Below are positions 20,072-55,300 of a stretch of 64,000 nucleotides of DNA, piece after piece. Under the pieces are notes generated by a model. The model searched no databases. It had not been told where the DNA came from and saw only the letters and a program-made list of their open reading frames with translations. The first letter of the stretch is position 1; each line of letters begins with the position of its first letter. The DNA comes from Cognatiluteimonas sedimenti (GTDB lineage: Bacteria; Pseudomonadota; Gammaproteobacteria; Xanthomonadales; Xanthomonadaceae): NCBI RefSeq assembly GCF_022808325.1, contig NZ_JALGCL010000001.1, positions 415,780-479,779 on the forward strand. Reading direction: 5' to 3'. A program made the translations under genes and the position numbers.

Positions 20072-20147
20072 TGGCGTCCCCAAGGGGATTCGAACCCCTG
20101 TCGCCGCCGTGAAAGGGCAGTGTCCTAGGCCTCTAGACGATGGGGAC
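20072..20147 (-). tRNA. tRNA-Glu (anticodon TTC)
   Basis: The 76-nt cloverleaf reads GTCCCCA at the 5' end paired with TGGGGAC at the 3' end, with discriminator G and encoded CCA. The anticodon loop C-T-T-T-C-A-C presents TTC, and the T-loop GTTCGAATC is standard. It is downstream of tRNA-Ala in the same operon and directly before the terminator. Confidence 0.96.
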
Positions 20148-20215
20148 CTGATGCATCGATCGTTGAGTTCAAAAACCCGGCCGTAGCCGGGTCGTTGCAA
20201 CGGGTTTCACAGTAT

Positions 20216-20291
<76 letters not shown>

Positions 20292-24522: not shown

Positions 24523-24942
24523 ATGTCGCCCTGGCCGTTCCTGTCGCGCGTGCTGCTCAGCCTCGCCCTCGTCGTGAACGCGGTGGCGCCGGTTGCGGCG
24601 TCGACCAGCGTGCCGATGGCACGGGTACAGCCAGCGACCGTCGCGGCCCATGGCGATGGGGCGGCGGCGCGCATGCCATGCCACCAGCAACGGCACGCAA
24701 CTGTCGCGAGCGCGGCTGCCCCGTCGGCGGCCATGCCGGCGCCCGACGACACGACGCAACCTGCTCCGGACAGCTGCGCGCCGGGCCCCTGCGCTTGCGC
24801 CTGCGTGCATCCCGGCCAGGCCGCGCTGCCGGCGCTTGCGATGACGCTGGAGCGGGTCCGCCCTCGATTGGCCAGCGGCGCGTTGCCACTGGCCCACGGC
24901 GCTCCCGCGTTGCGCCACCCGATCCGGCCTCCGATTGCCTAG
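24523..24942 (+). CDS. copL: CopL-family copper-responsive leader protein (left copy)
   Basis: CopL lies directly upstream of copAB in xanthomonads and is needed for copper-inducible expression of copAB. The 139 residues have an N-terminal hydrophobic signal (about 1-26), a Met/His/Ala-rich middle with MPCHQQ, and a Cys cluster CAPGPCACACVH that could bind Cu(I). The conserved C-terminus is H-x-I-R-P-P-I. The gene begins the left copper module; copA follows after 101 nt. Whether the protein, or its translation through the Cys cluster, does the regulating is not settled by sequence. Confidence 0.8.
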   Translation: MSPWPFLSRVLLSLALVVNAVAPVAASTSVPMARVQPATVAAHGDGAAARMPCHQQRHATVASAAAPSAAMPAPDDTTQPAPDSCAPGPCACACVHPGQAALPALAMTLERVRPRLASGALPLAHGAPALRHPIRPPIA

Positions 24943-24951
24943 GTATGGTGC

Positions 24952-24967
24952 AGCGCCGACCGGCGCT
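24952..24967 (+). promoter_or_regulatory. Hairpin in the copL-copA leader
   Basis: AGCGCCG at 24952-24958 pairs with CGGCGCT at 24961-24967 in the 101-nt copL-copA gap, nine bases after the copL stop. The right-arm copL-copA gap also contains hairpins, of different sequence. A translation-linked attenuator is one explanation. Confidence 0.35.
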
Positions 24968-25043
24968 CATCCGCCTGCGCGCATCCGCGATGGTTGCCGT
25001 CGCTGCGCGCAGATCGACACCCCGATGCTGTAACGGAGTTCCC

Positions 25044-26795
25044 ATGTCATCCACCCTGTTGAGTCACGACGGGCCGCGCCTGCCGTCGCGACGCCGCTTC
25101 GTGCAAGGCATCGCCGCCGGCGGTGCCGTCGCCAGCCTCGGCCTGTGGCCCGGCCCCGCATGGGCACTCGGCACGCGCGGCCAGCCCGGCGTGTTGTCCG
25201 GCACCGAGTTCGACCTGGTCATCGGCGAAACCCCGATGAACTTCACCGGGCGGACGCGCGCGGCAGTCACCGTCAATGGCTCGCTGCCGGCGCCGCTGTT
25301 GCGCTGGCGCGAAGGCACGACTGTCAACCTGCGCGTCTCCAACGCGTTGCCCGCCGGTTCGATCCACGGCCACGAGACCTCGATCCATTGGCACGGCATC
25401 CTGTTGCCGGCCAACATGGACGGCGTGCCGGGGCTGAGTTTCGCGGGCATCGGCCGCGGCGAGACCTACCACTACCGCTTCACCGTGAAACAGGCGGGAA
25501 CCTACTGGTACCACAGCCATTCCGCGTTCCAGGAACAGGCGGGGCTTTATGGCCCGCTGGTGATCGATCCGGTCGAACCGGAACCGTTCGCGTTCGATCG
25601 CGACTACGTGGTGATGCTCACGGACTGGACCGACCTGGATCCCACCGCGTTGTTCGCGCGGCTGAAGAAGATGTCGGACTACGACAACTACTACAAGCGC
25701 ACCGTCGGCGATTTCGTCCGCGACGCCTCGAAGGAGGGGTTGCGGGCAACGCTGGCCGACCGCGGCATGTGGGGGCGGATGCGGATGACGCCGACCGACC
25801 TGTCGGACGTCAACGGCAACACCTACACCTACCTGATGAACGGAACGACCGCGCTCGGCAACTGGACCGGCCTGTTCCGCAGCGGCGAGAAGGTCCGCCT
25901 GCGCTTCATCAACGGCTCGTCGATGACCCACTTCGACGTGCGCATCCCCGGCCTGAAGATGACCGTGGTCGCCGCAGACGGCCAGTACGTGCACCCGGTG
26001 ACGGTGGACGAATTCCGCATCGCCACGGCGGAGACCTACGACGTGATCGTCGAGCCTTCCGGGCAGGACGCCTTCACCATTTTTGCCCAGGACATGGGTC
26101 GCACCGGCCATGTCAGCGGCACCCTGGCGGTGCGCGAGGGGTTGCGCGCGCCGGTGCCGGCGCTGGATGCACGCCCGATCCTGCGCATGTCGGACATGGG
26201 CCATGGCGGGATGGGGCAGGGCGGCCACGACATGGCGGGCATGGACCACGCCGGCCACGCGATGGCCACGATGCAGCAGCACCCGGCGAGCGAGGCCGGC
26301 AACCCGCTGGTCGACATGCAGACGATGGCGCCGGTGCCCAAACTCGAGGACCCGGGGATCGGCCTGCGCGACAACGGCCGCACGGTACTGAACTACGCGA
26401 TGCTGCGCAGCGCTTTCGACGATCCCGATGGCCGCGAGCCAGGTCGCGAGATCGAGCTGCACCTCACCGGCCACATGGAAAAGTTCGCCTGGGGCTTCGA
26501 TGGCCGGAAGTTCTCCGACGTCGAACCGCTGCGGTTCAACTACGGCGAGCGCCTGCGGATCGTGCTGGTGAACGACACCATGATGACCCATCCGATCCAC
26601 CTGCACGGCATGTGGAGCGACCTGGAGGACGAAGGCGGCAACTTCCACGTGCGCAAGCACACCATCGACATGCCGCCGGGCAGCAGGCGCAGCTATCGCG
26701 TGCGTGCCGATGCGCTCGGGCAATGGGCCTACCACTGCCACCTGCTGTACCACATGGAAGCCGGCATGATGCGGCAGGTGTCGGTGGAGGAATGA
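25044..26795 (+). CDS. copA: Periplasmic multicopper oxidase CopA (left copy)
   Basis: Copper-resistance multicopper oxidase that oxidises or sequesters Cu(I) in the periplasm. A Tat signal with S-R-R-R-F-V at 15-20 exports the folded protein. The 583 residues contain all copper clusters: HWHG (115-118), WYHSHS, HPIHLHG and the H-C-H...H....M type 1 site (HCH at 564-566). A Met/His-rich insert (DMGHGGMGQGGHDMAGMDHAGH) may bind extra copper. ATG 25044, with CGGAG upstream, is the start. It overlaps copB by 4 nt. Confidence 0.95.
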   Translation: MSSTLLSHDGPRLPSRRRFVQGIAAGGAVASLGLWPGPAWALGTRGQPGVLSGTEFDLVIGETPMNFTGRTRAAVTVNGSLPAPLLRWREGTTVNLRVSNALPAGSIHGHETSIHWHGILLPANMDGVPGLSFAGIGRGETYHYRFTVKQAGTYWYHSHSAFQEQAGLYGPLVIDPVEPEPFAFDRDYVVMLTDWTDLDPTALFARLKKMSDYDNYYKRTVGDFVRDASKEGLRATLADRGMWGRMRMTPTDLSDVNGNTYTYLMNGTTALGNWTGLFRSGEKVRLRFINGSSMTHFDVRIPGLKMTVVAADGQYVHPVTVDEFRIATAETYDVIVEPSGQDAFTIFAQDMGRTGHVSGTLAVREGLRAPVPALDARPILRMSDMGHGGMGQGGHDMAGMDHAGHAMATMQQHPASEAGNPLVDMQTMAPVPKLEDPGIGLRDNGRTVLNYAMLRSAFDDPDGREPGREIELHLTGHMEKFAWGFDGRKFSDVEPLRFNYGERLRIVLVNDTMMTHPIHLHGMWSDLEDEGGNFHVRKHTIDMPPGSRRSYRVRADALGQWAYHCHLLYHMEAGMMRQVSVEE

Positions 26796-27835
26796 ACGCC
26801 ATGGACGCATCCGCAAAGACAAGCCGGGCGGCAATGCCGGGCGCCGCGCTCCTGGCCCTGCTGCCATTCACGGCGATGGCGCAGGTCGATCACGCCACCA
26901 TGTCCATGCCGACGCCGCCGCAGGCTGCGCCGCAGGTGACGCCAGTCACGCAACCCGCACCGGTGCCCGACCATGCCACGATGGATCATGCAGCAATGGA
27001 GCATGCTGCAGCGGACGATGCGGCAAAGGACCAGGCCGCAACGGCCGTGCCAGACCACGCCACCATGGACCACGCGGCCATGGGGCACGACATGGATGCC
27101 ATGCCCGCCATCGCACAGACCAGGCCGATAACGCCCATCCCGCAGGTCACCGACGCCGATCGCGCCGCCGCCGTACCTCCACCCGCCGACCATCCGGTGC
27201 ACGACAACGGCATCTACAGCTATCTGCTGTTCAACCGGCTCGAAACCTGGGATGCCGATCCCGGAAGCGGGCTGGCGTGGGAAGGGCAGGGCTGGATTGG
27301 CACCGACCTCAACCGGCTGTGGTTGCGCAGCGAAGGCGAGCAGGTCCATGGGCGCCTGCACTCGGCTGACCTGGAGGCGCTGTATGGACACGCCATCAGT
27401 CCCTGGTGGGACTTCGTCGCCGGCATCCGCCACGACTTCAAGCCGGGTTCTGCGCAGGATTTCCTGGCGGTCGGCGTGATGGGATTGTCGCCTTACAAGT
27501 TCGAAGTGTCGGCGACCGCCTATATCGGCCAGGCCGGGCAATCGGAGGCCCGGATCGAAGTCGAATACGAGTCATTGCTCACCAACCGATTGATCCTGCA
27601 GCCGCTGGTCGAGGTCAATGTCTTCGGCAAGGACGACGCGCGGCGCGGTATCGGCTCCGGGCTTGGAACGGTCGAAGCGGAGCTGCGGCTGCGTTACGAA
27701 TTCACCCGCCGCTTCGCCCCGTACGTCGGGCTGGTCCACGAACGCGCGTTTGGGCGCACCGCCGACCTGCGCCGCGCGGAAGGCGAAAGCGCCGACGATA
27801 CCCGCCTTGTAGCGGGCGTGCGCATCTGGTTCTGA
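26792..27835 (+). CDS. copB: Outer-membrane copper resistance protein CopB (left copy)
   Basis: Outer-membrane protein of the PcoB/CopB family. The 347 residues carry a signal peptide (to about residue 30), then repeated Met/His motifs such as DHATMDHAAMEHA and DHATMDHAAMGHD that should bind copper, and a beta-barrel domain from about residue 140 ending in the outer-membrane C-terminal phenylalanine (V-R-I-W-F). ATG 26792 overlaps the copA stop; ATG 26801 is a minor alternative. Confidence 0.93.
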   Translation: MNAMDASAKTSRAAMPGAALLALLPFTAMAQVDHATMSMPTPPQAAPQVTPVTQPAPVPDHATMDHAAMEHAAADDAAKDQAATAVPDHATMDHAAMGHDMDAMPAIAQTRPITPIPQVTDADRAAAVPPPADHPVHDNGIYSYLLFNRLETWDADPGSGLAWEGQGWIGTDLNRLWLRSEGEQVHGRLHSADLEALYGHAISPWWDFVAGIRHDFKPGSAQDFLAVGVMGLSPYKFEVSATAYIGQAGQSEARIEVEYESLLTNRLILQPLVEVNVFGKDDARRGIGSGLGTVEAELRLRYEFTRRFAPYVGLVHERAFGRTADLRRAEGESADDTRLVAGVRIWF

Positions 27836-27874
27836 CACCCGGCGATATCGGGACGAACAATGGAGATCACTGAC

Positions 27875-28375
27875 ATGAAAAGCCTCGCGCTTGCACCCGC
27901 GTTGCTCGGCCTCGCCCTGGCCCTGGCGAGTTGTACGCCAACCTCCGCCGCGCCGGGCAGCACTAGCGACGACGCGCGGCCCGTCACCGCCGCCGCAAAA
28001 CTCCCGCTGGTGGTGGTCCACAAGAACGCATCCTGCGGATGCTGCAACGACTGGATCGAGCACGTGCGCGCGGCCGGCTTCCGGGTACAGGTGCGCAACG
28101 AGGTCAACCTGAACCCGATCAAGGAGCGGGTCGGCGTGCCGCTCGGCAAGGGCTCCTGCCACACCGCCGAGGTTGACGGCTATTTCGTCGAAGGCCATGT
28201 ACCGGCAGCGGACATCAAGCGACTGCTCGCCGAACGCCCCGCAGCCAGGGGCCTGGTCCTGCCGGGCATGCCGATCGGATCGCCGGGCATGGAATCGCCG
28301 GACGGCCGCAGCCAGCCGTACACGGTCGAACTGGTCGGTTTCGATGGCGGCACATCGGCGTTTTCCCGGCACTGA
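27875..28375 (+). CDS. DUF411 metal-binding lipoprotein (left copy)
   Basis: Small exported DUF411 protein, a family found in copper and silver resistance clusters. The thioredoxin-like domain has HKNASCGCC, CHTA and the VEGHVPA segment, with Cys and Met/His residues likely to bind metal. The N-terminus has a lipobox-like L-A-S-C near residue 20. ATG 27875 is preferred over 27860 because TGGAGAT lies at a proper distance before it. A paralogue is at 55,768-56,286. The exact role is unknown. Confidence 0.75.
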   Translation: MKSLALAPALLGLALALASCTPTSAAPGSTSDDARPVTAAAKLPLVVVHKNASCGCCNDWIEHVRAAGFRVQVRNEVNLNPIKERVGVPLGKGSCHTAEVDGYFVEGHVPAADIKRLLAERPAARGLVLPGMPIGSPGMESPDGRSQPYTVELVGFDGGTSAFSRH

Positions 28376-28395
28376 AGCGACCGGGTGCGCAGGGC

Positions 28396-28427
28396 TTGAC
28401 TCTGGACCATGGTCAAGGGTGCAGACT
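28396..28427 (+). promoter_or_regulatory. MerR-type promoter TTGACT-N20-CAGACT (left)
   Basis: The -35 TTGACT (28396-28401) and the -10 CAGACT (28422-28427) are 20 bp apart, the overlong spacer used by MerR-family activators. The spacer holds a dyad centred on GACCATGGTC (28405-28414). The merR ATG is six bases after the -10, implying a leaderless transcript. The right-arm merR has the same hexamers, spacing and dyad core. Confidence 0.75.
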
Positions 28428-28433
28428 GCACGC

Positions 28434-28850
28434 ATGAAGATCGGAACGTTGGCCCGGGAAGCCGGGGTCGCCATCGACACGGTGCGCTACTACGAGCGGC
28501 AGGGACTGCTGCCGCCGCCGCAGCGCAGTGCGTCCGGATATCGCCAGCACGGGAAGGACGACGTCGCGCGGCTGCGTTTCATTCGCCGCTCCAAGGGGCT
28601 GGGGTTCACCCTCGAGGAGATCCGCGAACTGCTGGACCTTTCCGGCCGCCGCGACGTGGACATGGCCGGCATGAAGGCGGCCGCGATCCAGAAGCTCGCC
28701 GGGATCGACGAAAAACTTTCCGAACTGCAACGCGTGCGTGCCGGGCTGGAGGCGCTGGTGGCGTCCTGCCCGGGACACGGCGCGCTCGAACACTGCCCGA
28801 TCCTGGATGCGCTGGCCGGTGACCGGCCCGCCGGAGAACGACATGAGTGA
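28434..28850 (+). CDS. MerR-family copper-type regulator (left copy)
   Basis: MerR/CueR-like activator. The 138 residues have the MerR winged helix ([26 protein letters not shown]), a dimerisation coiled coil and a C-terminal metal loop [10 protein letters not shown]. The loop is C-X8-C rather than the C-X7-C of E. coli CueR, and a Met appears to occupy the position of CueR Ser77, so metal specificity is not certain. Context with a copper ATPase (8-nt overlap) argues for Cu(I)/Ag(I). Confidence 0.85.
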
Positions 28851-31188
28851 CCCGCACGCCCACCACCATCATGGCCATGGCCACGAGCACGCCACCACGA
28901 TCGATCCGGTGTGCGGCATGGCCGTGGATCCGGCGAAGACGCCGCACCACGCGACCCACGAAGGCCTGGAATACCACTTCTGCAATCCGCGTTGCCGCGA
29001 GAAGTTCGTTGCCGAGCCCGGCAAATACCTGGCTCCGCGGGATTCGCAACCTGTGGAGGCCGCGCCGGCCGGCACCACCTACACCTGCCCGATGCACCCG
29101 GAAATCCGGCAGCCGGGTCCGGGCACGTGCCCGATCTGCGGCATGGCGCTGGAACCGGAGATGCCGAGCCTGGACGACGGCGAGAACCCGGAACTGCGGG
29201 ACTTCGGTCGCCGCTTCTGGTGGACGCTGCCGCTGAGCGCCATCGTGCTGGTGCTGGCGATGTTCGGGCAGCACTTCCCGGCGCTGGACGCCGCCGCGCG
29301 CACCTGGCTGGAGTTCGCACTGGCCACGCCGGTGGTGCTGTGGGCTGGCCGGCCGTTCTTCGAGCGCTGGTGGCAATCGATCCGCAACCGCAGCCCCAAC
29401 ATGTGGACCCTGATCGGCACCGGCGTCGGCGCCGCCTACGGCTACAGCGTGGTCGCAACCGTGGCGCCGGGCCTGTTCCCGGCCTCGTTCCACGAGCACG
29501 GGCGCGTGGGCGTCTACTTCGAGGCCGCTGCGGTGATCGTGTCGCTGACCCTGCTGGGGCAGTTGCTGGAACTGCGCGCGCGCTCGAAGACATCGGCCGC
29601 GATCAAGGCGTTGCTTGGGCTGGCGCCCAAGACCGCGCGGCGCATCGAAGCCGACGGCAGCGAAACCGACATCCCGCTCGAGCACGTGCACGTCGGCGAC
29701 CGGCTGCGCGTACGTCCCGGCGAAAAGGTGCCGGTCGACGGCACCGTGCTCGAAGGCCGCTCCAGCATCGACGAATCCATGCTCACCGGCGAACCGATCC
29801 CGGTGGGGAAGGGGGAGGGCGACCAGCTCATCGGCGCCACCCTCAACGGCACCGGCGCGCTGGTGATGCGCGCCGAGCAGGTCGGTTCGGCCACGGTGCT
29901 GGCGCAGATCGTGCAGATGGTGGCGCAGGCCCAGCGCTCGCGCGCGCCGATGCAGCGCATGGCCGACAAGGTCGCATACTGGTTCGTGCTGGCCGTGTTC
30001 GCGGTCGCGCTGGCGACGTTCGTGGCATGGGGCCTGTTCGGCCCGGATCCATCGTGGACCTATGCCGTGCTCAACGCGGTCTCGGTGCTGATCATCGCCT
30101 GTCCCTGTGCGCTCGGACTGGCCACGCCGATGTCGATCATGGTGGCCAGTGGCCGCGCCGCGCACGGCGGCGTGCTGTTCCGCGACGCCGAGGCGATCGA
30201 GCGCTTGCGGGCAATCGATACGCTGGTGGTCGACAAGACCGGAACCCTGACCGAAGGCCGCGCTGCCTTCCGCGAAGTGCTGCCGGCACCGGGCATCGAT
30301 GCGGACGATGTGCTGCGCCTGGCCGCCAGCCTGGACCAGGGCAGCGAACATCCGTTGGCCGAAGCGATCGTCGCCGCCGCGCGGGATCGCGGCATGGCGC
30401 TGTCGCCGGTGGACGAGTTCGATTCGGTCACCGGGCAGGGAGTACGCGGCCGGGTGTCGGGGCAGGCATTGCTGCTGGGCAACGGCAGCCTGATGCGGGA
30501 CGCGGGGATCGATGTCGCGGAGTTGAGCGCACGCGCGGAAGCGCTACGGCGCGCGGGCGCAAGCGTCATGTTCCTTGCCGCCGATGGCCGCGCCCGGGGC
30601 GTGGTCGCGGTGGCCGACCCGGTCAAGAAGAGCACTCCGGCGGCACTGGCCGCGTTGCGCGCCGACGGCATACGCATCGTGATGGCGACGGGCGATGCGC
30701 AGGGCACCGCGGCTGCTGTCGCCGACGCGCTCGGCATCGACGAGGTGCATGGCGAAGTCCGTCCCGGCGACAAGGTCGCCCTGGTCAGGCGACTGCAGGC
30801 GCAGGGCCGGCGCGTGGCGATGGCCGGCGACGGCATCAACGACGCGCCGGCGCTCGCGGCGGCCGATGTCGGCATCGCCATGGGCACCGGTACCGACGTG
30901 GCGATGTCGACCGCGCAGGTGACCCTGGTCAAGGGCGACCTGCGGCGGATCGTCACCGCGCGCCGGATTTCCCGTGACACCGTGGGCAACATGAAGCAGA
31001 ACCTGGGCTTTGCCTTCCTTTACAACGCGATCGGCGTGCCGCTCGCCGCAGGCGTCCTGTACCCGGCGTTCGGCGTGCTGCTCAGCCCGATGATCGCGGC
31101 GCTGGCGATGAGCCTCAGTTCGGTCTCGGTGGTGGCCAATGCCTTGCGCCTGGGGCGGGATGCGTCGGGGCCTCGGGTTGACGCCTGA
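28843..31188 (+). CDS. YHS-domain Cu(I)-exporting P1B-type ATPase (left copy)
   Basis: Inner-membrane copper exporter of 781 residues. It has no CxxC ferredoxin-like domain. It starts with a His tract ([12 protein letters not shown]), then a YHS domain ([10 protein letters not shown]...[12 protein letters not shown]) and a second Cys-rich motif (YTCPMHPEI.........CPICGM). About eight membrane spans follow with the transport motif C-P-C, actuator TGEP, phosphorylation DKTGTLT, HP locus SEHPLAEA and hinge [11 protein letters not shown] 28843 overlaps merR. A close paralogue lies at 51,976-54,399, and the C-terminus of another at 31,767. Confidence 0.93.
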
Positions 31189-31278
31189 GGCCTGGACCGA
31201 GCTCGCCGCCGCGCGAACGGCGGGGGCGGCGGTTCCTGCTGGCGGACCACTTGCCATGCCTGATCGGGGGCTGATGAA
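31189..31278. other. GC-rich spacer after left ATPase
   Basis: No gene is supported. Runs of GCC/GGC (31204-31232) can fold into an imperfect hairpin that may end ATPase transcription, but no T-run follows. Confidence 0.4.
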
Positions 31279-31306
31279 ACTTCGCATAATGCCTATTATG
31301 TAAAGC
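31279..31306 (+). other. dif-like XerC/XerD recombination site
   Basis: A 28-bp block with left arm ACTTCGCATAA, a 6-bp centre TGCCTA and right arm TTATGTAAAGC. The left arm carries the xanthomonad dif core TTCGCATAA. The right arm matches the gammaproteobacterial XerD consensus TTATGTTAAAT at 8 of 11 positions, and CATAAT/ATTATG form a perfect inverted repeat around the centre. The sequence is strikingly AT-rich within GC-rich DNA. It may be a Xer site used by an integrated element, a decayed copy, or the chromosomal dif. Confidence 0.6.
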
Positions 31307-31328
31307 ATGATAACAGATCGTCCGATCT

Positions 31329-31600
31329 TGGCCGTGTCGGCGTCCCCTCATTGATGGCGCTGCCCGCTTGATCGTGTCGTGACCCCAGTTGCTGGCGCGT
31401 CCTTACACCCGCCCCCGGTTAGATCAACGAGTTGCGGATACCTGGTGGAACAGATGGTGCCAGGACATGTTGGCGCCCCTCCCTTGATTGTGTCGCGTCC
31501 CGTAATCGTGGCGCGTCCTTTGTGGTCGGATTGCACCCGTGAACATGGCGCCTTCCGTTTTCGCTGCCCGAAAGAATCCCTTGAACGTGGCGCGTCCCTT
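31329..31600 (+). repeat. Array of degenerate ~20-bp repeats
   Basis: About nine copies or half-copies of a unit resembling CTTGATCGTGTCGCGTCCC begin near 31329, 31351, 31368, 31388, 31465, 31483, 31502, 31540 and 31580. The best are CTTGATTGTGTCGCGTCCCG (31483) and GTAATCGTGGCGCGTCCTTT (31502). Spacing is irregular, so this is not CRISPR. It resembles arrays of transposase-binding sites at the ends of some insertion elements (IS21-like or Tn7-like), but no transposase is adjacent. Short ORFs across it on both strands look like chance frames. Confidence 0.6.
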
Positions 31601-31766
31601 GCCCAATTTCCGGCGGCACTCCGTGGCTTGGGGCGGCGTGCCTGCCTGACTTCATTCGCGTCGAAGTTGGGTAAGACGGGCGGTCATTCCCGAGGCGGAA
31701 AACTCGAACGTGATTCGATCGCCGACCTTCGTGCGAGATCGTGTCGATGACGCCAGTCGCCCGGTT

Positions 31767-32042
31767 GGAAACATGAAACAGAACCTCGGGTTTGCATTCG
31801 CCTACAACGCCGTCGGAGTGCCGATCGCCGCCGGCGTTCTTTACCCAGTGTTCGGCCTGCTACTGAGCCCGATGGTTGCGGCGCTGGCCATGAGCCTGAG
31901 CTCGGTATCGGTGGTGGCCAATGCACTTCGCCTTCAAGTCGACCGCCGTACCGTCCTCGCCGACCACATCTGTGCCGCGCCGGCCCCTGCGCCTGGCCAA
32001 GGACTGACTTGGATCAATTGCATCGGTTCTGGTAAGAGGTAA
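31767..32042 (+). pseudogene. C-terminal remnant of a copper P1B-type ATPase
   Basis: The frame encodes [20 protein letters not shown] and the rest of the last two membrane spans, through [14 protein letters not shown], closely matching the C-termini of the ATPases at 28,843 and 51,976 but diverged from both. Everything upstream of Gly-Asn-Met is missing; before about 31,766 the sequence is unrelated. An odd tail of about 30 residues runs to the stop at 32042. It is the 3' stump of a third ATPase gene, cut by the event that placed the repeat array beside it. Confidence 0.85.
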
Positions 32043-32051
32043 GCTCACGCC

Positions 32052-32474
32052 ATGGTCCGCATCCGCCATCGGAACTGGTTCCAGCGCACCGCCCTCCTCG
32101 CGATGGCGGCGCTGCTCTGGTCCCAGTTCGTGCTTGCAGGCCACGGCGAGTGCCTGGATCTCCCAGGCACGCCGGCGGCGTTTGTGGCTGCCGCCACCGA
32201 CACCCAGCACGACCATGGCCACGGCTGCGATGCCGAGCTCCCCTCGGCGAGCAAGGCACTGTGCGACGCGCACTGCACCGAGGGTGACCTCTCGGCGGAC
32301 AGTGGACGCATCCCTTTGATTCCGCCGCTGCTCGCCGAAGCCTGGTTCTCCTGGCTTGCAATCGCCGCGATTGCGGATGCTGCGCCAAGTGTCACGGCTA
32401 CATGGGTGGATTCGCCGCCCAGACCCGCCTGGCACCGACCTACCGCCCATCCAGCGGCGCTCCTGCTGATCTGA
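32052..32474 (+). CDS. Small His/Cys-rich exported protein upstream of cusCBA
   Basis: Unrecognised 140-residue protein. It has an N-terminal hydrophobic segment (about 12-30) that should act as signal or anchor, then a stretch with H-D-H-G-H-G-C-D and C-D-A-H-C-T that looks suited to bind metal, and a second hydrophobic stretch around 95-112. Small proteins of this sort often precede heavy-metal RND operons. Its position 131 nt before the outer-membrane gene suggests a role in sensing or chaperoning copper; no family is claimed. Confidence 0.6.
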   Translation: MVRIRHRNWFQRTALLAMAALLWSQFVLAGHGECLDLPGTPAAFVAAATDTQHDHGHGCDAELPSASKALCDAHCTEGDLSADSGRIPLIPPLLAEAWFSWLAIAAIADAAPSVTATWVDSPPRPAWHRPTAHPAALLLI

Positions 32475-32604
32475 TGCCCGGGACGCTGACTGCTCCGCAC
32501 GTCCGTGCGGCGCAGTCCTGTGCGTTCGCGCCGTGGCTGCATCACGGCATGTGTTCCTGCCCTCGTCCGAGCGACCTGCGTCGCGCCGGCCAAAGGACAC
32601 TGAT

Positions 32605-33927
32605 ATGGCATCCCCGTTCGATCGACTGCAGGCCGGGCGCCTGCACCCTCGCCCGCTGTTCCGCCGCCGGCCACCGCTCCGGCACCTGCTTCCCTGCGTG
32701 CTCGCCGGCGCCTTGTGGACGCTGGCGCTGCCCGTTACCGCAACCGAACCCGTCCCAGGGCACAGTCTCGAGTCGATCCGCGCCTGGGTCCTCGAACACA
32801 ACCCCGAGCTGCGGGCACTGGACTTCGAGGCCCAAGCCGCCGAAGCACGGATTCTGCCGGCGGGCGCCCTGCCCGACCCGATGGCCTCCGTTGGATTCCG
32901 CGGCCTGGATCCAGACAAGCCCTGGCGCACCGCCGGTGCCGAGCGCCAGGTCGACTACGCGGTACGCCAGCGTTTCCCCCTCTGGGGCAAGCGCGGCCTG
33001 GCACGCACCGCGGCCAGCCAGGACGCGGTCGCGATCGGGCTCGATCGCCTCACAACTGCGCGCGACCTGCTGGCCGACGCCGAGACGGCCTACGCACGCT
33101 ACTGGCATGCCGATCAGGCCGTGGCTGTACTCGATCGCCGCATCGCCCTGCTCCGCCAGGTCGAAGAGATGGCCGGCGTGCGCTACGCCCTGGGCCGCGC
33201 GGCGCAGCAAGATGCCATCCGCGCCCAGGTCGAGCAGACCAGCCTCCAGCGCGAGCGGATCGAACGCCTCGCGACCAAGCAGGAGGCGGCTGCCACCTTG
33301 AACGCGGTGTTGGGGCGCCGGTCCGATGCACCGCTGGCGACTCCCGATGAGGCGCCGCGCCTCGTCGTCCACAGCGCCTCGCTCGCCGCGGCACTGGATG
33401 GCGCCGATGCGCACCCCGCTGTGCGCTCGCAGCAGGCCCGCGCCGAATCCGCGCACACGAACGTGGTGCTGCAGCGTCGCAACCGCTTTCCCGACATCAC
33501 CGTGGGCGTGGGCGCAATGCAACTCGGCAACGGCCTCGAAAGCACCGAGCTGATGCTGGAGGTCGAGATCCCGTTCCAGCAGCGTGCACGCCGCGAACGC
33601 GAGCGCGAATCGCGCCTGCTCGAAGAAGCGGCCCTGGCCCGCAGGGATGCCACGTTGCGCGCCGTCGAAGAACGCGGTGCCTCCGCTTGGGCGCAGTGGA
33701 CCAGCGCACGCGAGCGCCGCGGGCTGATCGAGAACACGCTGCTGCCGCAGGCCGACGCCACCTGGCAGTCCGCACTGGCCAGCTACCAAGTCGGCGAAGT
33801 CGACTTCGGGACGCTGCTCGAAGCACTCAATGAATGGCAGGGCGCCGACCTCGCACGGGTCGATGCATTGCGTGACGAATTGTTGGGCGCCGCCGCCGTG
33901 CGCGCCATCGAAGGAGATATCCGATGA
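32605..33927 (+). CDS. CusC/CzcC-type outer-membrane efflux protein
   Basis: TolC-like outer-membrane channel of the heavy-metal RND pump. The 440 residues have a basic N-terminus with a signal peptide (to about residue 47) and two OEP repeats rich in long coiled-coil helices. ATG 32605 is chosen because AAAGGA precedes it; the in-frame extension to 32533 lacks support. A small hairpin (32495-32500 with 32505-32510) lies upstream. It overlaps the adaptor gene by 4 nt. Confidence 0.88.
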   Translation: MASPFDRLQAGRLHPRPLFRRRPPLRHLLPCVLAGALWTLALPVTATEPVPGHSLESIRAWVLEHNPELRALDFEAQAAEARILPAGALPDPMASVGFRGLDPDKPWRTAGAERQVDYAVRQRFPLWGKRGLARTAASQDAVAIGLDRLTTARDLLADAETAYARYWHADQAVAVLDRRIALLRQVEEMAGVRYALGRAAQQDAIRAQVEQTSLQRERIERLATKQEAAATLNAVLGRRSDAPLATPDEAPRLVVHSASLAAALDGADAHPAVRSQQARAESAHTNVVLQRRNRFPDITVGVGAMQLGNGLESTELMLEVEIPFQQRARRERERESRLLEEAALARRDATLRAVEERGASAWAQWTSARERRGLIENTLLPQADATWQSALASYQVGEVDFGTLLEALNEWQGADLARVDALRDELLGAAAVRAIEGDIR

Positions 33928-35303
33928 CCCGTGTCCAGACCCTGTCGCTCGCCATCGGCGTCGCACTCGCCGCCCTCGTCGTCGGCTGGATGGCCGGCCG
34001 CGCGACGAACGATTCCCCGACCGCAGCCACGTCCGCCGAGGCGCCGGCCGCGGAACGCAAAGTGCTCTATTACCGCAATCCCATGGGCCTCCCCGACACC
34101 TCACCGGTGCCGAAGAAGGACCCGATGGGCATGGACTACGTCCCGGTCTACGCCGGCGACGCGCCTGCCGCGACGCCGGGAACGGTGGTGATGCCACCCG
34201 ACAAGGTGCAGGCGCTGGGCGTGCGTACCGAAGCGGTCCGGCACGCAGTCTTGGCTGCGACCGTGCGCACCAGCGGCACCGTCGAGGTCGACGAGACCCG
34301 GCAGTACGCGATCGCGCCGCGCTTCGAAGGTTGGGTCGAACGGCTGTACGCGAACCAGACCGGCATGCGGGTCCACGCGGGGCAACCGCTGCTGTCCGTT
34401 TACAGCCCGCAGCTGGCCGCGGCGCAGCAGGAATATCGGCTGGCCGACGAGACCGCCCGCAGGCTGGCGGCATCCGACCCCGCGAGCGCGGCCTCGATGG
34501 TCCGGCTGCGCGCCGCCGCCCGCACCCGTCTGCGAAACTGGGAAATCAGCGACGCGCAGCTCGGCAAGACGGGACTGGTGCTCACCGCACCGGCGGACGC
34601 GGTCGTGATCGAGAAGCCGGTGGTCCAGGGCGCGCGCTTCGAGCCCGGCGAGACCATCCTGCGCCTGGCCGACCTGTCGACGGTGTGGGTGATCGCCAAG
34701 GTCCCGGCAGCGCAGGCCGCGGGCATCAAGCCCGGCCAGGCGGCCCGGTTTGAAACCGTGGCCCTGCCCGGCCAGGTGGCCGAGGGCGAAGTCACCTTCG
34801 TGCAGCCCGTCATCGATGCGCAGACGCGCACCGTGGATGTGCGCATTGCCCTGCCCAACCCCGACGGCGACCTGCGTCCCGGGCTCTACGGAACGGTGCT
34901 GCTTGAGGAGCCGGGGGCGGGGCCGGTCCTGACCGTCCCGCGCTCCGCCGTGCTCGACAGCGGCACGCGCCAGGTGGTGCTGATCGAAACCGGTCCTGGC
35001 CGCTTCGCACCGCGAGATGTCACCCTGGGTCGCCGCGGTGGCGATCGGATCGAGATCCTCGACGGACTGGCCGAGGGCGAGCAGGTCGTGGTCTCCGCGA
35101 ACTTCCTGATCGACGCCGAAAGCAACCTGCAGTCGGCGCTGGAGGGTCTTGGCGGTCATGCAGGACATGGCACGCCCTCGGGCACCAGCGAGGATTCACA
35201 ACCCGAGTCCGGCGATGGCGTCTCCGATCCGCACGCAGGTCATTCCATGCCGGCCACCCAGGAGGAGACTCCGCGCTCCCCCACCGGCCACGAGGGGCAC
35301 TGA
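33924..35303 (+). CDS. cusB: CusB-type periplasmic adaptor with metal-binding N-terminus
   Basis: Membrane-fusion adaptor of 459 residues. After an N-terminal anchor/signal (about 9-29) there is a YHS-like metal site L-Y-Y-R-N-P-M-G...KKDPMGMDYVPVY that corresponds to the Met site with which CusB passes Cu(I) or Ag(I) to CusA. Barrel-sandwich and beta-barrel domains follow. The C-terminal 50 residues are rich in His and Met (HAGHGTPSG...HAGHSMP...GHEGH), an extra metal-binding tail. A single base separates its stop from the cusA ATG. Confidence 0.9.
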   Translation: MTRVQTLSLAIGVALAALVVGWMAGRATNDSPTAATSAEAPAAERKVLYYRNPMGLPDTSPVPKKDPMGMDYVPVYAGDAPAATPGTVVMPPDKVQALGVRTEAVRHAVLAATVRTSGTVEVDETRQYAIAPRFEGWVERLYANQTGMRVHAGQPLLSVYSPQLAAAQQEYRLADETARRLAASDPASAASMVRLRAAARTRLRNWEISDAQLGKTGLVLTAPADAVVIEKPVVQGARFEPGETILRLADLSTVWVIAKVPAAQAAGIKPGQAARFETVALPGQVAEGEVTFVQPVIDAQTRTVDVRIALPNPDGDLRPGLYGTVLLEEPGAGPVLTVPRSAVLDSGTRQVVLIETGPGRFAPRDVTLGRRGGDRIEILDGLAEGEQVVVSANFLIDAESNLQSALEGLGGHAGHGTPSGTSEDSQPESGDGVSDPHAGHSMPATQEETPRSPTGHEGH

Positions 35304-35304
35304 C

Positions 35305-38300
35305 ATGCTGGCCCGTCTCATCGAATGGTCGGTCCGCAACGTCTTCCTGGTGCTGGTGATGACGCTGGCGATCGTGGCCGGCGGCATCTACGCGCTGATG
35401 CAGACCCCGCTGGACGCGCAACCGGACCTGTCGGATGTCCAGGTGATCGTGTTCACCGAGTATCCGGGACAAGCGCCCCAGGTGGTCGAGGACCAGATCA
35501 CCTACCCGCTGACCAGCGCCCTGCTCTCGGTGCCCAAGTCGAAGGACGTCCGCGGCTTCTCGTTCTTCGGTGCCTCGTTCATCTACGTCATCTTCGAGGA
35601 AGGGACGGATCTCTACTGGGCGCGCTCGCGCGTGCTCGAGAACCTGAACGTCGCCTCGAAGAACTTGCCGGCCGGCGTGGCACCCGCACTGGGCCCCGAC
35701 GCCACAGGCGTAGGCTGGGTCTACCAGTACGTCCTCAAGAGCGACCGCCACTCGCTGGACGAGTTGCGCGCCATGCAGGACTGGTACCTGCGCTACCAGC
35801 TCACTACCGCGCCCGGCGTGGCCGAGGTCGCCAGCGTCGGCGGCTTCGTGCGCCAGTACTCGATCACCGTTGATCCGGTCCGGCTGCGCGAGTTCGACAT
35901 CCCGATTTCACGGGTGTCCGAGGTGATCGCCGAGAGCAACCGCGACGTCGGCGGCCGCGTGATCGAGATGGCCGAGACCGAGTACATGGTGCGGGGCCGT
36001 GGCTACCTGCGCGGCATCAAGGACATCGAGAGCCTGGTGCTGCGCGCCGAAGGAGGCGCACCGGTGCTGATCGGCGACGTCGCCCGGGTCGAACTGGTGC
36101 CCGACGAGCGCCGTGGCATCGCCGACCTGAACGGCGACGGCGATGTCGTGGCCGGGATTGTCATTGCGCGATTCGGCGAGAACGCCCTGGCCGTGATCGG
36201 TGGGGTGAAGGACAAGATCGCGGAACTTGCACGAGGATTGCCCGAAGGCGTCAGCGTCCAGGCGGTCTACGACCGCTCCGACCTCATCGTGCGTGCGATC
36301 AAGACGCTGCGCACGACACTGTTCGAGGAGAGTCTGATCGTCGCGCTGGTGTGCCTGCTGTTCCTGTTCCATGCGCGCAGCGCGCTGGTCGCGATCGTCA
36401 TGCTGCCGGTCGGCGTGCTGATCGCGGTGATCGCGATGCGTGCGCTGGGCATGAACTCCAACATCATGAGCCTGGGCGGCATCGCGATCTCGATCGGCGT
36501 GATGGTGGACGCGGCGATCGTGATGATCGAAAACGCGCACAAGCACATCGAACGCTCCGACGGCTCCCGCAGCCGGGCCCAGGTGATCATCGACGCCTGC
36601 CGCGAGGTCGGGCCGGCGCTGTTCTTCAGCCTGATGATCATCACCGTCTCCTTCCTTCCGGTGTTCGCCCTGGAGGCGCAGGAAGGCCGCCTGTTCAAGC
36701 CTCTGGCTTTCACCAAGACGTTTGCCATGGCGGGTGGAGCCCTGCTGTCGGTGACGCTCGTCCCCGTGCTCATGTTGTTGTTCGTGCGCGGCAAGATCGT
36801 GCCCGAGCAGAAGAATCCAGTGAACCGGTTCCTGGTCGCGCTCTACCGCCCGGTGATCAATGTCGTACTCAGGCACCGGATGGCCACGATCGCGATCGCG
36901 CTGGTCGCCCTGTTCGCCAGCCTGTGGCCCGCGTCGCGCCTGGGCAGCGAGTTCATGCCCACGCTCAACGAGGGCACGCTCCTGTACATGCCGGCATCGC
37001 TCCCAGGCATGTCGGTGACCAAAGCATCGGAGCTGCTGCAGCAGCAGGACCGGATCATCAAGGGCTTCCCGGAAGTGGAATCCGTCTTCGGCAAGGCCGG
37101 GCGCGCCCTGACAGCGACCGACCCCGCGCCCCTGGAGATGTTCGAGACAACCATCAACCTCAAGCCCGAGGGCGAATGGCGCGACGGAATGACCACCGAC
37201 AAGCTCATCGCCGAGATGGATGAGGCGCTGAAGTTCCCGGGGGTCGCCAACTCGTGGACGATGCCGATCAAGGCGCGCACCGACATGCTGGCCACCGGCA
37301 TCCGCACGCCGGTCGGGATCAAGCTCTTCGGCACCGACCTCGAGCAGCTCGATGCCCTGGCGACCGAGATCGAAGCGGTCGTGCGCGAGGTGCCGGGGAC
37401 GACCAGCGCATTCGCCGAACGCCTGACCGGCGCCTACTACCTCGACATCACCCCCAACCTGCACAGCCTGGCCCAGTACGGCGTGACCCTGGGCGAGGTC
37501 CAGGACGTGGTGGCAGCCGCGCTGGGCGGCGAGATCGTCACCACCATCCTCCAGGGCCGTGAGCGCTTCAGCGCAATCGTGCGCTATCCGCGCGAGCTGC
37601 GCGACGACCCGCACCGTATCGGCAGCCAAGTCCTGGTGCCCGTGCCCGGCGGCGCGCAGGTGCCCCTCGGCGAGCTGGCGCGAATCGAGGTCACGAAAGG
37701 GGCGCCGAGCATCCGCACCGAAAACGCGATGCTGGCGGCCTACATCTACGTCGATACGCGCGAAAGCGACCTGGGTCGTTACGTGCAGGCTGCGCAGAAT
37801 GCGGTCGCCGAACAGGTGCAGTTCCCACCCGGCTACTACGTGACCTGGAGCGGGCAGTACGAGTACATGCAGCGCGCCGCCGAAAAGATGCGCGTCGTCG
37901 TCCCGGTGACGCTGGCGTTGATCTTCTTGCTGCTGTACCTCAACTTCCGCCGCGTCACCGAGTCGCTGATCGTGATGCTGTCGGTACCGTTCGCACTCGT
38001 CGGCGGCGTGTGGCTGATGTGGCTGCTCGACTACAACGTCAGCGTCGCGGTGATCGTGGGCTTCATCGCGCTGGCCGGCGTCGCCGCGGAAACCGGCGTG
38101 GTGATGCTGATCTACCTTGACCACGCGCTCGAGGCGCGTGCCGCGCAGCGTCGGGCCGAAGGCCGCTCTCTGGATGCACGCGACCTCCGCGAGGCGATCA
38201 TCGAAGGCGCGGTCGACCGCGTGCGCCCGAAGATGATGACCGTGGTCGCGATCATGGCCGGCCTGCTGCCGATCATGTGGAGCAGCGGCACAGGCTCCGA

Positions 38301-38445
38301 GGTCATGCGTCGCATCGCCGCGCCGATGGTGGGCGGCATGGTCTCGTCTACGGTTCTGACGCTGGTGGTGATCCCGGCGCTGTACTCGCTGATCAAACAG
38401 CGGCAACTGGCCAGGACGCCACCAATCCACAGGAGTAGTCCATGA
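35305..38445 (+). CDS. cusA: CusA-type Cu(I)/Ag(I) RND transporter
   Basis: Proton-driven inner-membrane pump of 1046 residues with twelve spans and the heavy-metal-efflux signature (N-terminal RNVFLVLVMTLAI, VPKSKDVRGFSFFG). The three methionines that form the CusA metal site are conserved: Met562 (LLYMPASLPG), Met612 (LEMFETT) and Met661 (TDMLATG), with the same spacing as E. coli CusA 573/623/672. This argues for Cu/Ag rather than Co/Zn/Cd. Its stop overlaps the metallo-hydrolase start by 4 nt. Confidence 0.93.
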   Translation: MLARLIEWSVRNVFLVLVMTLAIVAGGIYALMQTPLDAQPDLSDVQVIVFTEYPGQAPQVVEDQITYPLTSALLSVPKSKDVRGFSFFGASFIYVIFEEGTDLYWARSRVLENLNVASKNLPAGVAPALGPDATGVGWVYQYVLKSDRHSLDELRAMQDWYLRYQLTTAPGVAEVASVGGFVRQYSITVDPVRLREFDIPISRVSEVIAESNRDVGGRVIEMAETEYMVRGRGYLRGIKDIESLVLRAEGGAPVLIGDVARVELVPDERRGIADLNGDGDVVAGIVIARFGENALAVIGGVKDKIAELARGLPEGVSVQAVYDRSDLIVRAIKTLRTTLFEESLIVALVCLLFLFHARSALVAIVMLPVGVLIAVIAMRALGMNSNIMSLGGIAISIGVMVDAAIVMIENAHKHIERSDGSRSRAQVIIDACREVGPALFFSLMIITVSFLPVFALEAQEGRLFKPLAFTKTFAMAGGALLSVTLVPVLMLLFVRGKIVPEQKNPVNRFLVALYRPVINVVLRHRMATIAIALVALFASLWPASRLGSEFMPTLNEGTLLYMPASLPGMSVTKASELLQQQDRIIKGFPEVESVFGKAGRALTATDPAPLEMFETTINLKPEGEWRDGMTTDKLIAEMDEALKFPGVANSWTMPIKARTDMLATGIRTPVGIKLFGTDLEQLDALATEIEAVVREVPGTTSAFAERLTGAYYLDITPNLHSLAQYGVTLGEVQDVVAAALGGEIVTTILQGRERFSAIVRYPRELRDDPHRIGSQVLVPVPGGAQVPLGELARIEVTKGAPSIRTENAMLAAYIYVDTRESDLGRYVQAAQNAVAEQVQFPPGYYVTWSGQYEYMQRAAEKMRVVVPVTLALIFLLLYLNFRRVTESLIVMLSVPFALVGGVWLMWLLDYNVSVAVIVGFIALAGVAAETGVVMLIYLDHALEARAAQRRAEGRSLDARDLREAIIEGAVDRVRPKMMTVVAIMAGLLPIMWSSGTGSEVMRRIAAPMVGGMVSSTVLTLVVIPALYSLIKQRQLARTPPIHRSSP

Positions 38446-39827
38446 ACAACGAAACCAACCCCACCCTCCAGTTCCTCGGTGCCGCGGGCACCGTCACAGG
38501 CTCGCGCTACCTGGTCGAGGCCAACGGCCAGCGCGTGCTGGTGGACTGCGGCCTGTTCCAAGGCTACAAGCAGCTGCGCGAGCGCAACTGGGCCCCGTTT
38601 CCGGTCGATCCGGCGTCAATCGATGCGGTGGTCCTTACCCACGCGCACCTGGATCATTCGGGCTACCTCCCAGCGTTGGTCAAGCAGGGGTTCCGCGGCC
38701 GGATCCACTGCACCCAGGGTAGCGTGGCCCTCTGCGGCCTGCTGCTTCCCGACAGCGGACACCTGCTCGAAGAAGAGGCCAAGTATGCGGCCCGCAAGGG
38801 CTACTCCAAGCACAAGGAACCACGACCGCTTTACACCGAGGATGACGCACGCCGCAGCCTGAAGCAGCTCACTGGACATGATTATGGTCGCGACATCGAG
38901 ATCGCATCAGGCGTCTCGGTCCGCTTCCATCCTGCCGGCCACATCCTGGGCGCTGCCCACGTCAGCCTGGACGTCCAGGGCCAGCGCCTGCACTTCAGTG
39001 GCGACCTGGGGCGACAGCAGGAGTCGCTGATGAATCCGCCAACGCCCCTGCCCGCCTGTGACGTCCTGGTCTGCGAGTCCACATACGGCAATCGCGAACA
39101 CGTTCCGATCGACCAGGAGGCGGAGCTGGCTCCCATCATCCGCCGCGTCGCAGCCCGCGGGGGTGTGATCGTCATCCCCGCCTTTGCCATCGGACGCGCC
39201 CAGGCGCTCATGCTGCATATCGCCCGGTTGCGTGAGCGCAAGGAGATCCCGCGCGTGCCGGTCTACCTCAACAGCCCGATGGCGATCAACGCGACCCGGC
39301 ACTACCACGCCCATCATTCCGACCACCACGTGTCCGAAGAGGACTGCCAGCGGATGTTCGACGTGGCCACTTTCGTCAACACGGTGGATGAGTCGAAGGC
39401 ACTCAACCGCCAGCGCGGGCCGATGATCATCATCTCGGCCAGCGGCATGATCACCGGCGGGCGCGTGCTGCACCACATCGAGGCATTCGGCCAGGATGAC
39501 CGCAACGCGATCCTGCTGGCGGGCTACCAGGCCGGCGGAACACGCGGTGCCGCACTGGCGGCGGGAAAGCGCACCTTGCGCATGTTCGGCCGCGAGATCC
39601 CGATTCGTGCCGAGGTGGTGCAGCTGGAGGGCTTTTCCGGCCACGCCGACGCCGGGGAACTCCTCGACTGGATGCGCACCGCGCCGTCCGCGCCGCGCGT
39701 CGTCTACCTCACCCACGGCGAGCCCGACGCAGCCGACACGCTGCGCGGGCGCGTGCAGCGCGAGCTGGGCTGGCGCGCGCGCGTGCCGGAGCACCTGGAG
39801 CAGGTTGGCCTGGAGGATGTGCGGTGA
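38442..39827 (+). CDS. Beta-CASP metallo-beta-lactamase-fold hydrolase
   Basis: 461-residue protein of the RNA-processing exonuclease type (YSH1/RNase J relatives). The zinc motif is THAHLDHSG, further ligands lie in G-H-I-L-G-A-A-H and FSGDLG, and the beta-CASP part includes FAIGRAQ, NSPMA, SASGMITGGR and GFSGHADAGEL. The likely activity is ribonuclease, but bacterial members next to AMP phosphorylases are uncharacterised. It overlaps cusA and the phosphorylase gene by 4 nt each, tying it to the efflux operon. Confidence 0.85.
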   Translation: MNNETNPTLQFLGAAGTVTGSRYLVEANGQRVLVDCGLFQGYKQLRERNWAPFPVDPASIDAVVLTHAHLDHSGYLPALVKQGFRGRIHCTQGSVALCGLLLPDSGHLLEEEAKYAARKGYSKHKEPRPLYTEDDARRSLKQLTGHDYGRDIEIASGVSVRFHPAGHILGAAHVSLDVQGQRLHFSGDLGRQQESLMNPPTPLPACDVLVCESTYGNREHVPIDQEAELAPIIRRVAARGGVIVIPAFAIGRAQALMLHIARLRERKEIPRVPVYLNSPMAINATRHYHAHHSDHHVSEEDCQRMFDVATFVNTVDESKALNRQRGPMIIISASGMITGGRVLHHIEAFGQDDRNAILLAGYQAGGTRGAALAAGKRTLRMFGREIPIRAEVVQLEGFSGHADAGELLDWMRTAPSAPRVVYLTHGEPDAADTLRGRVQRELGWRARVPEHLEQVGLEDVR

Positions 39828-41335
39828 CGACGCCGGGCCACACCCGCCTGCGCGTCACCCGTGCCGGCATCGACACCTACCAGCAGCCGGTGGTCTATAT
39901 GCACCGCGACTGCGAAGTCTGCCGTTCGGAAGGATTTGTCGCGATGACGCGCGTGAGGCTGGCCGTCGGTACGCGCACGCTGGTGGCGACGCTGAACGTG
40001 GTCGTCGACGCCCGGCTTGGTCTGGACGAGGTGGCCCTGTCGGAGGCCGCGTGGACGCTGCTCGATCCCGTGTCCGATGCCCTCGCCTCGGTGCGGCATG
40101 CGGAACCCGCGTCGTCGGTAGGCGCGCTCCGTGCCAAAGTGTTCGGGGCGCGGTTGGATGACACGCAGTACCTCGCCTTGGTGCAGGACGTGATGGAAAG
40201 CCGGTTGTCGGACCTGGAGCTTGCCGCGTTCGTCACGGCCAGTGCGGGTGACCGCCTGGACCACGCGGAAACCACGGCGCTGACGCGGGCGATGATCGCT
40301 GTCGGCCAACGCCTGGACTGGGGCGAAGGCCCGGTGCTGGACAAGCACTGCGTGGGCGGCTTGCCGGGCAATCGCACCACCCCGATCGTGGTGGCCATCG
40401 TGGCTGCGCTGGGCTACCGCATTCCAAAAACGTCCTCGCGCGCAATCACCTCGCCCGCGGGCACCGCCGACACGATGGAAGTGATGGCGCCGGTGGCGCT
40501 CGACCTGGCTGCGATGCAGCGGGTGGTGGAGCGCGAGGGCGGCTGCATCGTCTGGGGCGGCAACGTGCGCCTGAGCCCGGCCGACGACATCCTGATCAGG
40601 GTCCAGCGGCCGCTGGACTTCGACAGCGACGGCCAGCTGGTTGCCAGCGTACTGTCGAAGAAGATCGCCGCGGGCTCAACTCACGTGCTGATCGACATGC
40701 CGGTAGGGCCGACCGCCAAGGTGCGTGGTGAGGCCGCGGCGCACAGCCTTGGCGCACGGCTTGCACACACCGCGGACGCGCTTGGATTGCACATGGGCAT
40801 CCATCGCTCAGACGGTACCCAGCCGGTGGGTCGGGGAATCGGTCCGGCGCTTGAAGCGCACGATGTGCTCAAGGTGCTGCGCAACGCCGCCGATGCCCCC
40901 GCAGACCTCCGCGAACGCGCACTTGCGCTGTCCGCGGCGCTGCTGGACATGGCACCGGGCAGCAACGCCGCCACCGGACTGGAGCGCGCGCGCAGCGTGC
41001 TGGATTCCGGGGCGGCGCTGGCCAAATTCCTGGCGATCTGCGAGGCCCAGGGGGGCTTCCGCGAACCGCAACGCGCAGCATTCACCGCCGACGTTCCGGC
41101 AACCGCATCGGGCCGGATCGCGGCGATCGACAACCGTAGCCTGGCCAAGCTGGCCAAACTGGCTGGCGCACCGACTTCCCCCACGGCCGGCCTCGAGACC
41201 GGTCTGCGCGTCGGCGATATGGTCGAGCGCGGACAGCCCCTGATGACATTGCATGCGGAGTCTCCGGGAGAACTGGCTTACGCCCTTGAGCACGCTCCGA
41301 CATTGCAACCCTTTGCCCTCGCGGAGATCCCATGA
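39824..41335 (+). CDS. AMP-phosphorylase/thymidine-phosphorylase-like enzyme
   Basis: 503-residue nucleoside phosphorylase II superfamily protein of the archaeal AMP-phosphorylase type rather than E. coli DeoA type. It has the extra N-terminal barrel domain (residues 1-85) and the phosphate loop KHCVGGLPGNRTT, whereas DeoA has KHSTGG. Archaeal relatives convert AMP and phosphate to ribose 1,5-bisphosphate and adenine. A SSRAITSPAGTAD segment completes the active site. It starts with GTG overlapping the metallo-hydrolase stop. The substrate here is not proven; NCBI-style names often say thymidine phosphorylase family. Confidence 0.85.
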   Translation: MTTPGHTRLRVTRAGIDTYQQPVVYMHRDCEVCRSEGFVAMTRVRLAVGTRTLVATLNVVVDARLGLDEVALSEAAWTLLDPVSDALASVRHAEPASSVGALRAKVFGARLDDTQYLALVQDVMESRLSDLELAAFVTASAGDRLDHAETTALTRAMIAVGQRLDWGEGPVLDKHCVGGLPGNRTTPIVVAIVAALGYRIPKTSSRAITSPAGTADTMEVMAPVALDLAAMQRVVEREGGCIVWGGNVRLSPADDILIRVQRPLDFDSDGQLVASVLSKKIAAGSTHVLIDMPVGPTAKVRGEAAAHSLGARLAHTADALGLHMGIHRSDGTQPVGRGIGPALEAHDVLKVLRNAADAPADLRERALALSAALLDMAPGSNAATGLERARSVLDSGAALAKFLAICEAQGGFREPQRAAFTADVPATASGRIAAIDNRSLAKLAKLAGAPTSPTAGLETGLRVGDMVERGQPLMTLHAESPGELAYALEHAPTLQPFALAEIP

Positions 41336-54794: not shown

Positions 54795-54829
54795 GTGGAC
54801 CTCAGGGCCTTGGCAGTGGTGAGGCCAGT

Positions 54830-54861
54830 AGTCTGTAGTCTGGACCATGGTCCAGAGTCAA
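54830..54861 (-). promoter_or_regulatory. MerR-type promoter TTGACT-N20-CAGACT (right)
   Basis: On the - strand TTGACT (54856-54861) and CAGACT (54830-54835) are separated by 20 bp; the spacer holds a perfect 16-bp palindrome CTGGACCATGGTCCAG (54840-54855). It drives the right merR-ATPase pair. Hexamers, spacing and dyad core match the left promoter at 28,396. Confidence 0.75.
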
Positions 54862-54939
54862 GCCCTGGCTGCCAGAGATTCATTCGGTCTCCAAGTCCTG
54901 CGTGAGAAGAGATGTTTTCCCACTGAAGGAGCCGACACC

Positions 54940-55293: not shown

Positions 55294-55300
55294 GCAAAGG

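Follow-up and report, generated by a model that had tools for sequence, protein, structure and literature searches.

A probable chromosomal dif site, reversed relative to its conserved flanks, between facing copper modules in Cognatiluteimonas sedimenti

The chromosomal dif sites of Xanthomonas campestris and other proteobacteria, as described in the sections cited here, have an 11-6-11 layout with a conserved XerD arm, are intergenic and AT-rich, and lie near the peak of the cumulative GC skew (PMC2731167, PMC3025954). In the part of PMC2680272 cited, GGGNAGGG is given as the octamer (KOPS) that orients FtsK in E. coli, and for Yersinia a preference for dif orientation is reported (PMC2483231, section 15). 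Sites of this kind are also targets of IMEX and filamentous phages (PMC5357621), while in Acinetobacter resistance genes lie beside dif in modules flanked by Xer sites (PMC12907356), as far as the cited portions of these accounts go. The site considered here lies in the window, a stretch of 64,000 nt (C1:415780–479779) from the 2,738,243-bp, 6-contig genome of C. sedimenti. It shares the layout, the XerD arm, the intergenic, AT-rich setting and the nearness to the skew peak, and is set among copper genes (Table 1).

An earlier note on this DNA had described a dif-like 28-bp block between the left copper module and a repeat array, and had read it as a XerCD site of a mobile element or, alternatively, as the chromosomal dif. 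The block is real, and reads ACTTCGCATAA (31279–31289, the XerC arm), TGCCTA (31290–31295, the 6-base centre) and TTATGTAAAGC (31296–31306, the XerD arm), the arms being named after the published proteobacterial dif in the part of PMC2731167 cited. Gene and repeat coordinates bear out its placement, the stop of the copper P-type ATPase gene (copA) being 90 bp upstream and a repeat-bearing stretch of 460 bp, its direct repeats degenerate, lying directly beyond. A search of the 2.74-Mb genome with TNCGCATAANNNNNNTTATGTNAA, allowing up to 3 mismatches, gave one place with 0 mismatches; a second row was the same site on the other strand with 3 mismatches, and a backwards control pattern also gave 1 match. 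A dif match elsewhere in the genome, with which the earlier note had advised a comparison, was not present within 3 mismatches, and the site is unique in the genome. A weight matrix was built from 20 dif sites, this one among them, and in a scan of 400 kb around dif it found one site above 6 bits, the present one, at 44 bits. Ten of 20 fetched stretches, those of G068, G134 and eight island genomes, served for their dif letters only. An AT-rich block within a region of 67% GC, with a hairpin fold no better than that of shuffled sequences, might be a palindrome arisen by chance; however, the full 11-6-11 match is single in the genome and lies at the KOPS switch described below, which leaves this origin a negligible probability. 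The single 0-mismatch place in 2.74 Mb and the sole 400-kb site above 6 bits put the dif beyond chance. The idea of a hairpin serving as a single-strand attP was rejected (DNA fold z of -0.19), and an Rfam scan reported two tRNAs at 20075–20291 only, with no Rfam feature at dif.

Matches to dif with up to 2 mismatches were found in 54 of 60 genomes, the own genome counted, 8 of which had more than one. With up to 1 mismatch, 266 of 297 genomes, again counting the own, had a match, exactly one in 264 of them and two each in G032 and G266. Two of the eight other genomes of the genus (G003 and G006) lacked a dif within 2 mismatches. The centre TGCCTA is common to the congeners G001, G004, G005 and G007, and the XerD arm TTATGTAAAGC to G002.

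Table 1. Features of the dif region, in window coordinates
Feature	Position	Strand	Basis or remark
ppsR	18577–19398	+	NCBIfam NF049928 above cut-off; orients dif across the family
Left copper module	24678–31188	+	Pfam/NCBIfam; genes face dif
Multicopper oxidase, left module	24678–26795	+	
Copper P-type ATPase (copA), left module	28738–31188	+	
Chromosomal dif (probable)	31279–31306	+	Single genome copy, 44-bit matrix score, inside KOPS switch interval
Anonymous stretch with degenerate direct repeats	31307–31769	.	Between dif and copA remnant
3′ remnant of second copA	31770–31990	+	82–84% to 3′ ends of left and right copA
cus operon	32052–38445	+	Pfam; transcribed away from dif
Small protein, cus operon	32052–32474	+	
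Outer-membrane channel, cus operon	32533–33927	+	
CusB-type protein	33924–35303	+	
CusA-type protein	35272–38445	+	
Right copper module	51976–60263	-	Self-comparison, Pfam; inverted relative to left module; genes face dif
Copper P-type ATPase, right module	51976–54435	-	
Multicopper oxidase, right module	58455–60263	-	

Forward and reverse occurrences of GGGNAGGG numbered 37 and 3 in the 200 kb left of dif, and 2 and 43 on the right, so that 80 of the 85 across 400 kb were directed at dif; the single best switch interval (C1:446212–448646, 2.4 kb) contained dif (C1:447060). When no motif was presupposed, GGGCAGGG was the most strand-biased octamer among those with at least 40 occurrences (24:1 left of dif, 1:35 right). 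KOPS polarity tracks dif rather than gene strand, since KOPS were dif-directed at 45:2 in those long open frames whose transcription runs towards dif, at 29:3 in those with transcription away from it and at 6:0 between frames. The cumulative GC skew, an inflection of which had been proposed as a check, had its maximum at the boundary of a 10-kb bin, roughly 10 kb to the left of dif, and dropped beyond dif, on a noisy curve with reversals 110–120 kb to the right; dif thus stands at the switch of both KOPS and skew. In a profile search with the XerD model, a match above the cut-off was obtained at C2:937 and a second Xer match at C5:186095, the protein of which is read as a probable XerC. An FtsK gamma domain above the cut-off is encoded at C1:497192–497374, about 50 kb from dif.

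Uniqueness in the genome, usually one copy per genome in relatives, the KOPS switch and a GC-skew maximum about 10 kb away strongly favour the second of the two readings in the earlier note. On this sequence evidence the site is very probably (roughly 0.93) the chromosomal dif of this genome, where XerC and XerD, driven by FtsK and KOPS, would resolve chromosome dimers. FtsK, steered by GGGNAGGG on both arms, would pump the terminus towards dif and trigger the two recombinases, dimer resolution being expected from what holds in the family. As the probable dif, the site would fix the replication terminus of the genome.

The first reading of the earlier note, which made the site an end of an Xer-mobilised element, was not supported. 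An IMEX or dif-module attached here could have brought the copper genes, which directly adjoin dif and are horizontally spread: 21 further genomes within the family encode a CusA with 93–97% identity to that of the window, so that the cus island has moved, and filamentous prophages use dif within the family (G258). However, neither a second dif nor, apart from dif's own palindrome, a 10- or 11-base half-site with up to 1 mismatch was present in the 80 kb formed by the window and the 16 kb that follow it, and the 9-base XerD core was matched with 1 mismatch at two places only, 771 and 13868, both a long way from the island. The genes beside dif are copper genes and not those of a phage or element, no Zot-family match was obtained in the nine genomes of the genus (own included), and CusA of at least 75% identity was found 4–390 kb from dif, at many distances. 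Simple Xer integration preserves the orientation of dif, and the reversal described below would therefore not be explained. Such an element is a very improbable source of the copper genes, and the false lead of Xer mobility is removed.

A prophage at dif looks quite different from the copper locus. In G258, of another genus, a filamentous prophage (L135 1984–10028) adjoins dif. An inverted repeat of about 260 bp, with a degraded dif keeping the XerD arm and centre, lies 7.75 kb from the dif of that genome, and Rep_trans and Zot-like genes lie in the interval. The dif of G258 is also reversed relative to ppsR. In the window, an open frame at 62010–63485 matched phage integrases below the Pfam cut-off (E 3e-4) and possibly encodes an integrase of the island. 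In a plasmid search with 31150–32100, the best 20 of 357 matches covered the 3′ end of copA only.

The block of genes with ppsR was held by 7 of 16 compared neighbourhoods (G001, G005, G007, G008, G010, G016 and G025), always on the XerD side of dif, and in the window ppsR lies left of dif, on the XerC side. In G001, G002, G005, G007 and G008, the opposite flank aligns with window sequence to the right of dif, from +46 to +47 kb. These alignments show that, against the arrangement in relatives, dif is reversed with respect to the conserved flanks on both sides. Since both flanks map to opposite sides of dif, the dif-bearing segment is turned in a terminus that elsewhere keeps a largely collinear order, apart from one more break in G007, 5 kb from the dif of that genome. 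A wider survey took in 150 of the 266 genomes with dif and 150 of the 289 with ppsR, the dif places of G013, G016 and G034 being added from the 60-genome survey at up to 2 mismatches. Among the matches listed, at least 57 genomes had ppsR and dif on one contig, and 37, the own genome counted, had them within 100 kb; of the latter, again among the matches listed, 31 were canonical, 5 had ppsR on the XerC side (the own genome, G068, G091, G221 and G258) and 1 had ppsR pointing away. With 5 of 37 so arranged, reversal of dif is uncommon but recurrent in the family. In G091, 9.5 kb of the XerD-side flank is common to G020 in the same orientation, though their ppsR genes are on opposite sides, which places the rearrangement outside this flank; between G221 and G206, G270 or G157, nothing of 200 bp or longer was in common within 10 kb. 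No report of a locally reversed dif, or of dif beside copper islands, was among the papers listed in a literature search. A dif reversed locally raises the question of whether its orientation matters at all.

An assembly error at the inverted copper modules might mimic such a reversal, as inverted repeats of 6–8 kb flank the dif segment. However, the two copies (25.1–31.2 kb forward against 52.0–60.2 kb reverse) are only 75–88% identical, in pieces longer than 300 bp, and unlikely to be confused, and dif lies on a 1.42-Mb contig in an assembly of 6 contigs. This explanation is very unlikely on these grounds; KOPS do not discriminate here, because both orientations of dif suit them.

On either side of the reversed dif is a copper module, and the two face one another. 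Within the left module is a region which we take to be CopB-like, for which no protein-family match was obtained. The anonymous stretch beyond dif contains direct repeats 74% alike (31352–31404 and 31468–31520) and three 25-mers (at 31480, 31498 and 31577). It had no match in the 8 other genomes of the genus, and across the 297 genomes of the family only matches of 24–40 bp, in 5 others; the repeats around GTGGCGCGTCC are possibly the scar of a lost transposon end. In G141 and G268 the counterpart of the copA remnant is continuous with an open copA frame, which leads straight into cus, and a decayed second copA follows an intact one in G137, G112 and G010 as well (L078, L079 and L082), with no dif in the gap. 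The proposal of a link between the adjoining dif and the loss of the front part of the second copA was withdrawn, the gene having decayed likewise in these three genomes without dif there. Directly after cusA, genes resembling those for a beta-CASP nuclease, a phosphorylase and a PRPP synthetase (38442–42246) are partly common to islands of other genera; for the nuclease, Cas14 type VII was the best-matching NCBIfam model, at far less than the cut-off.

Recombination between the oppositely facing copper modules would invert dif and cusCBA as one segment, and because dif is at the edge of that segment, KOPS would still point at it afterwards. The chance that dif and cusCBA were inverted as a unit in this way is about even or lower. 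G005 likewise has the small gene and cusCBA beside dif, on the XerD side, an arrangement as in the window which supports their moving as a unit. Against inversion, the modules, with the divergence given above, have no clear recent gene conversion, and G005 does not simply mirror the window in its gene order. Inversion is also made less certain by the order copA, remnant, cus in G137, which in G112 and G010 is preceded by the oxidase, with no dif in the gap in any of the three. Since the same order exists without dif in G112 and G010, dif may instead have ended up within a copper island of standard order, or with a half of one on either side. Divergence from G112 is unequal (oxidase and copA 77–84%, cus 91%), which suggests separate histories for the two sides flanking dif. 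The closeness of dif and cus in G005, G190 and G087, together with the reversed orientation in the window, would also fit a dif that arrived together with the cus island, from a donor with dif beside cus, and replaced the native one. However, the centre and XerD arm are those of congeners, as listed above, and a native origin is simpler for that reason; import is unlikely.

The cusCBA operon of the window type clusters near dif in the family. CusA searches gave 117 rows, which are matches, some genomes having two: 43 without a listed dif, 43 with dif on another contig and 31 with dif on the same contig. At 75% identity or more there were 49 rows (15, 15 and 19, respectively). Among the matches listed, 16 of these 19, the own genome included, were within 75 kb of dif (linear distances throughout), and all 19 were transcribed away from dif, on either side of it; the 16 fall in 7 genera. 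Below 75%, 9 of 12 listed matches were within 75 kb and 5 of 12 were transcribed away. Arsenic Acr3, compared for distance alone whereas CusA was compared for distance and direction, had 2 of 15 listed matches within 75 kb and 3 of 15 within 100 kb. With rows on other contigs counted as far, the proportions were 16 of 34 for CusA and 2 of 61 for Acr3 among the matches listed (Fisher 4e-7, indicative only, as are all Fisher values here, the genomes being related).

KOPS in 20 fetched islands ran opposite to the cusA strand in a ratio of 80:6. The exceptions belong to G085 (two, within cus), G190 (three) and G091 (one), the latter two having theirs elsewhere in their 20 kb, and they count against a KOPS filter. 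Both oxidase-to-copA modules of the window, which face dif, carried KOPS on the gene strand, at 6:0 in the left and 2:0 in the right (8:0 in all, including two overlapping pairs in the left). In homologous modules facing outward the ratio was 0:5 (two in G141, two in G087 and one in G137); those of G112 and a piece in G005 had no KOPS, and five homologous modules without an assigned direction had 0:3. KOPS polarity in homologous copper modules thus follows their orientation to dif, on small counts (8:0 versus 0:5, Fisher 0.0008). Such polarity is predicted by the AIMS/KOPS filter on gene transfer near the terminus, as put forward in the part of PMC5993296 cited. A joint reading, which is tentative and has somewhat less than even odds, is that the dif zone of the family is a preferred home of cusCBA, with the operon pointing away from dif, that KOPS filter the orientation of islands, so that modules facing dif have opposite KOPS, and that dif could be flipped without harm because KOPS polarity is preserved. 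Homologous modules facing towards and away from dif offer a natural experiment for the filter, by which a known idea becomes testable, namely that the survival of acquired DNA near dif is decided by KOPS polarity.

Compared with described dif sites, the window site has the centre TGCCTA, versus TGTATA or TGCATA common in the surveyed relatives, and is reversed to the neighbouring conserved genes and set between copper genes. With the IMEX and filamentous phages in the cited part of PMC5357621 it has the target sequence in common, and a Zot prophage at dif does exist in the family (G258); in contrast to those elements, the window has a single site, no adjoining phage genes and no half-site. Resistance genes beside dif recall the Acinetobacter dif/pdif modules, but these, in the portion of PMC12907356 cited, are flanked by Xer sites, whereas the window has one site only. 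As in the cited part of the AIMS/KOPS work (PMC5993296), islands near dif mostly carry permissive KOPS; the differences from what is given there are that one operon type is fixed in direction here (19 of 19 listed matches pointing away) and that KOPS polarity is opposite between homologous modules of the two orientations. The dif itself is an ordinary, important site, and its reversed setting and copper-island surroundings are the noteworthy part.
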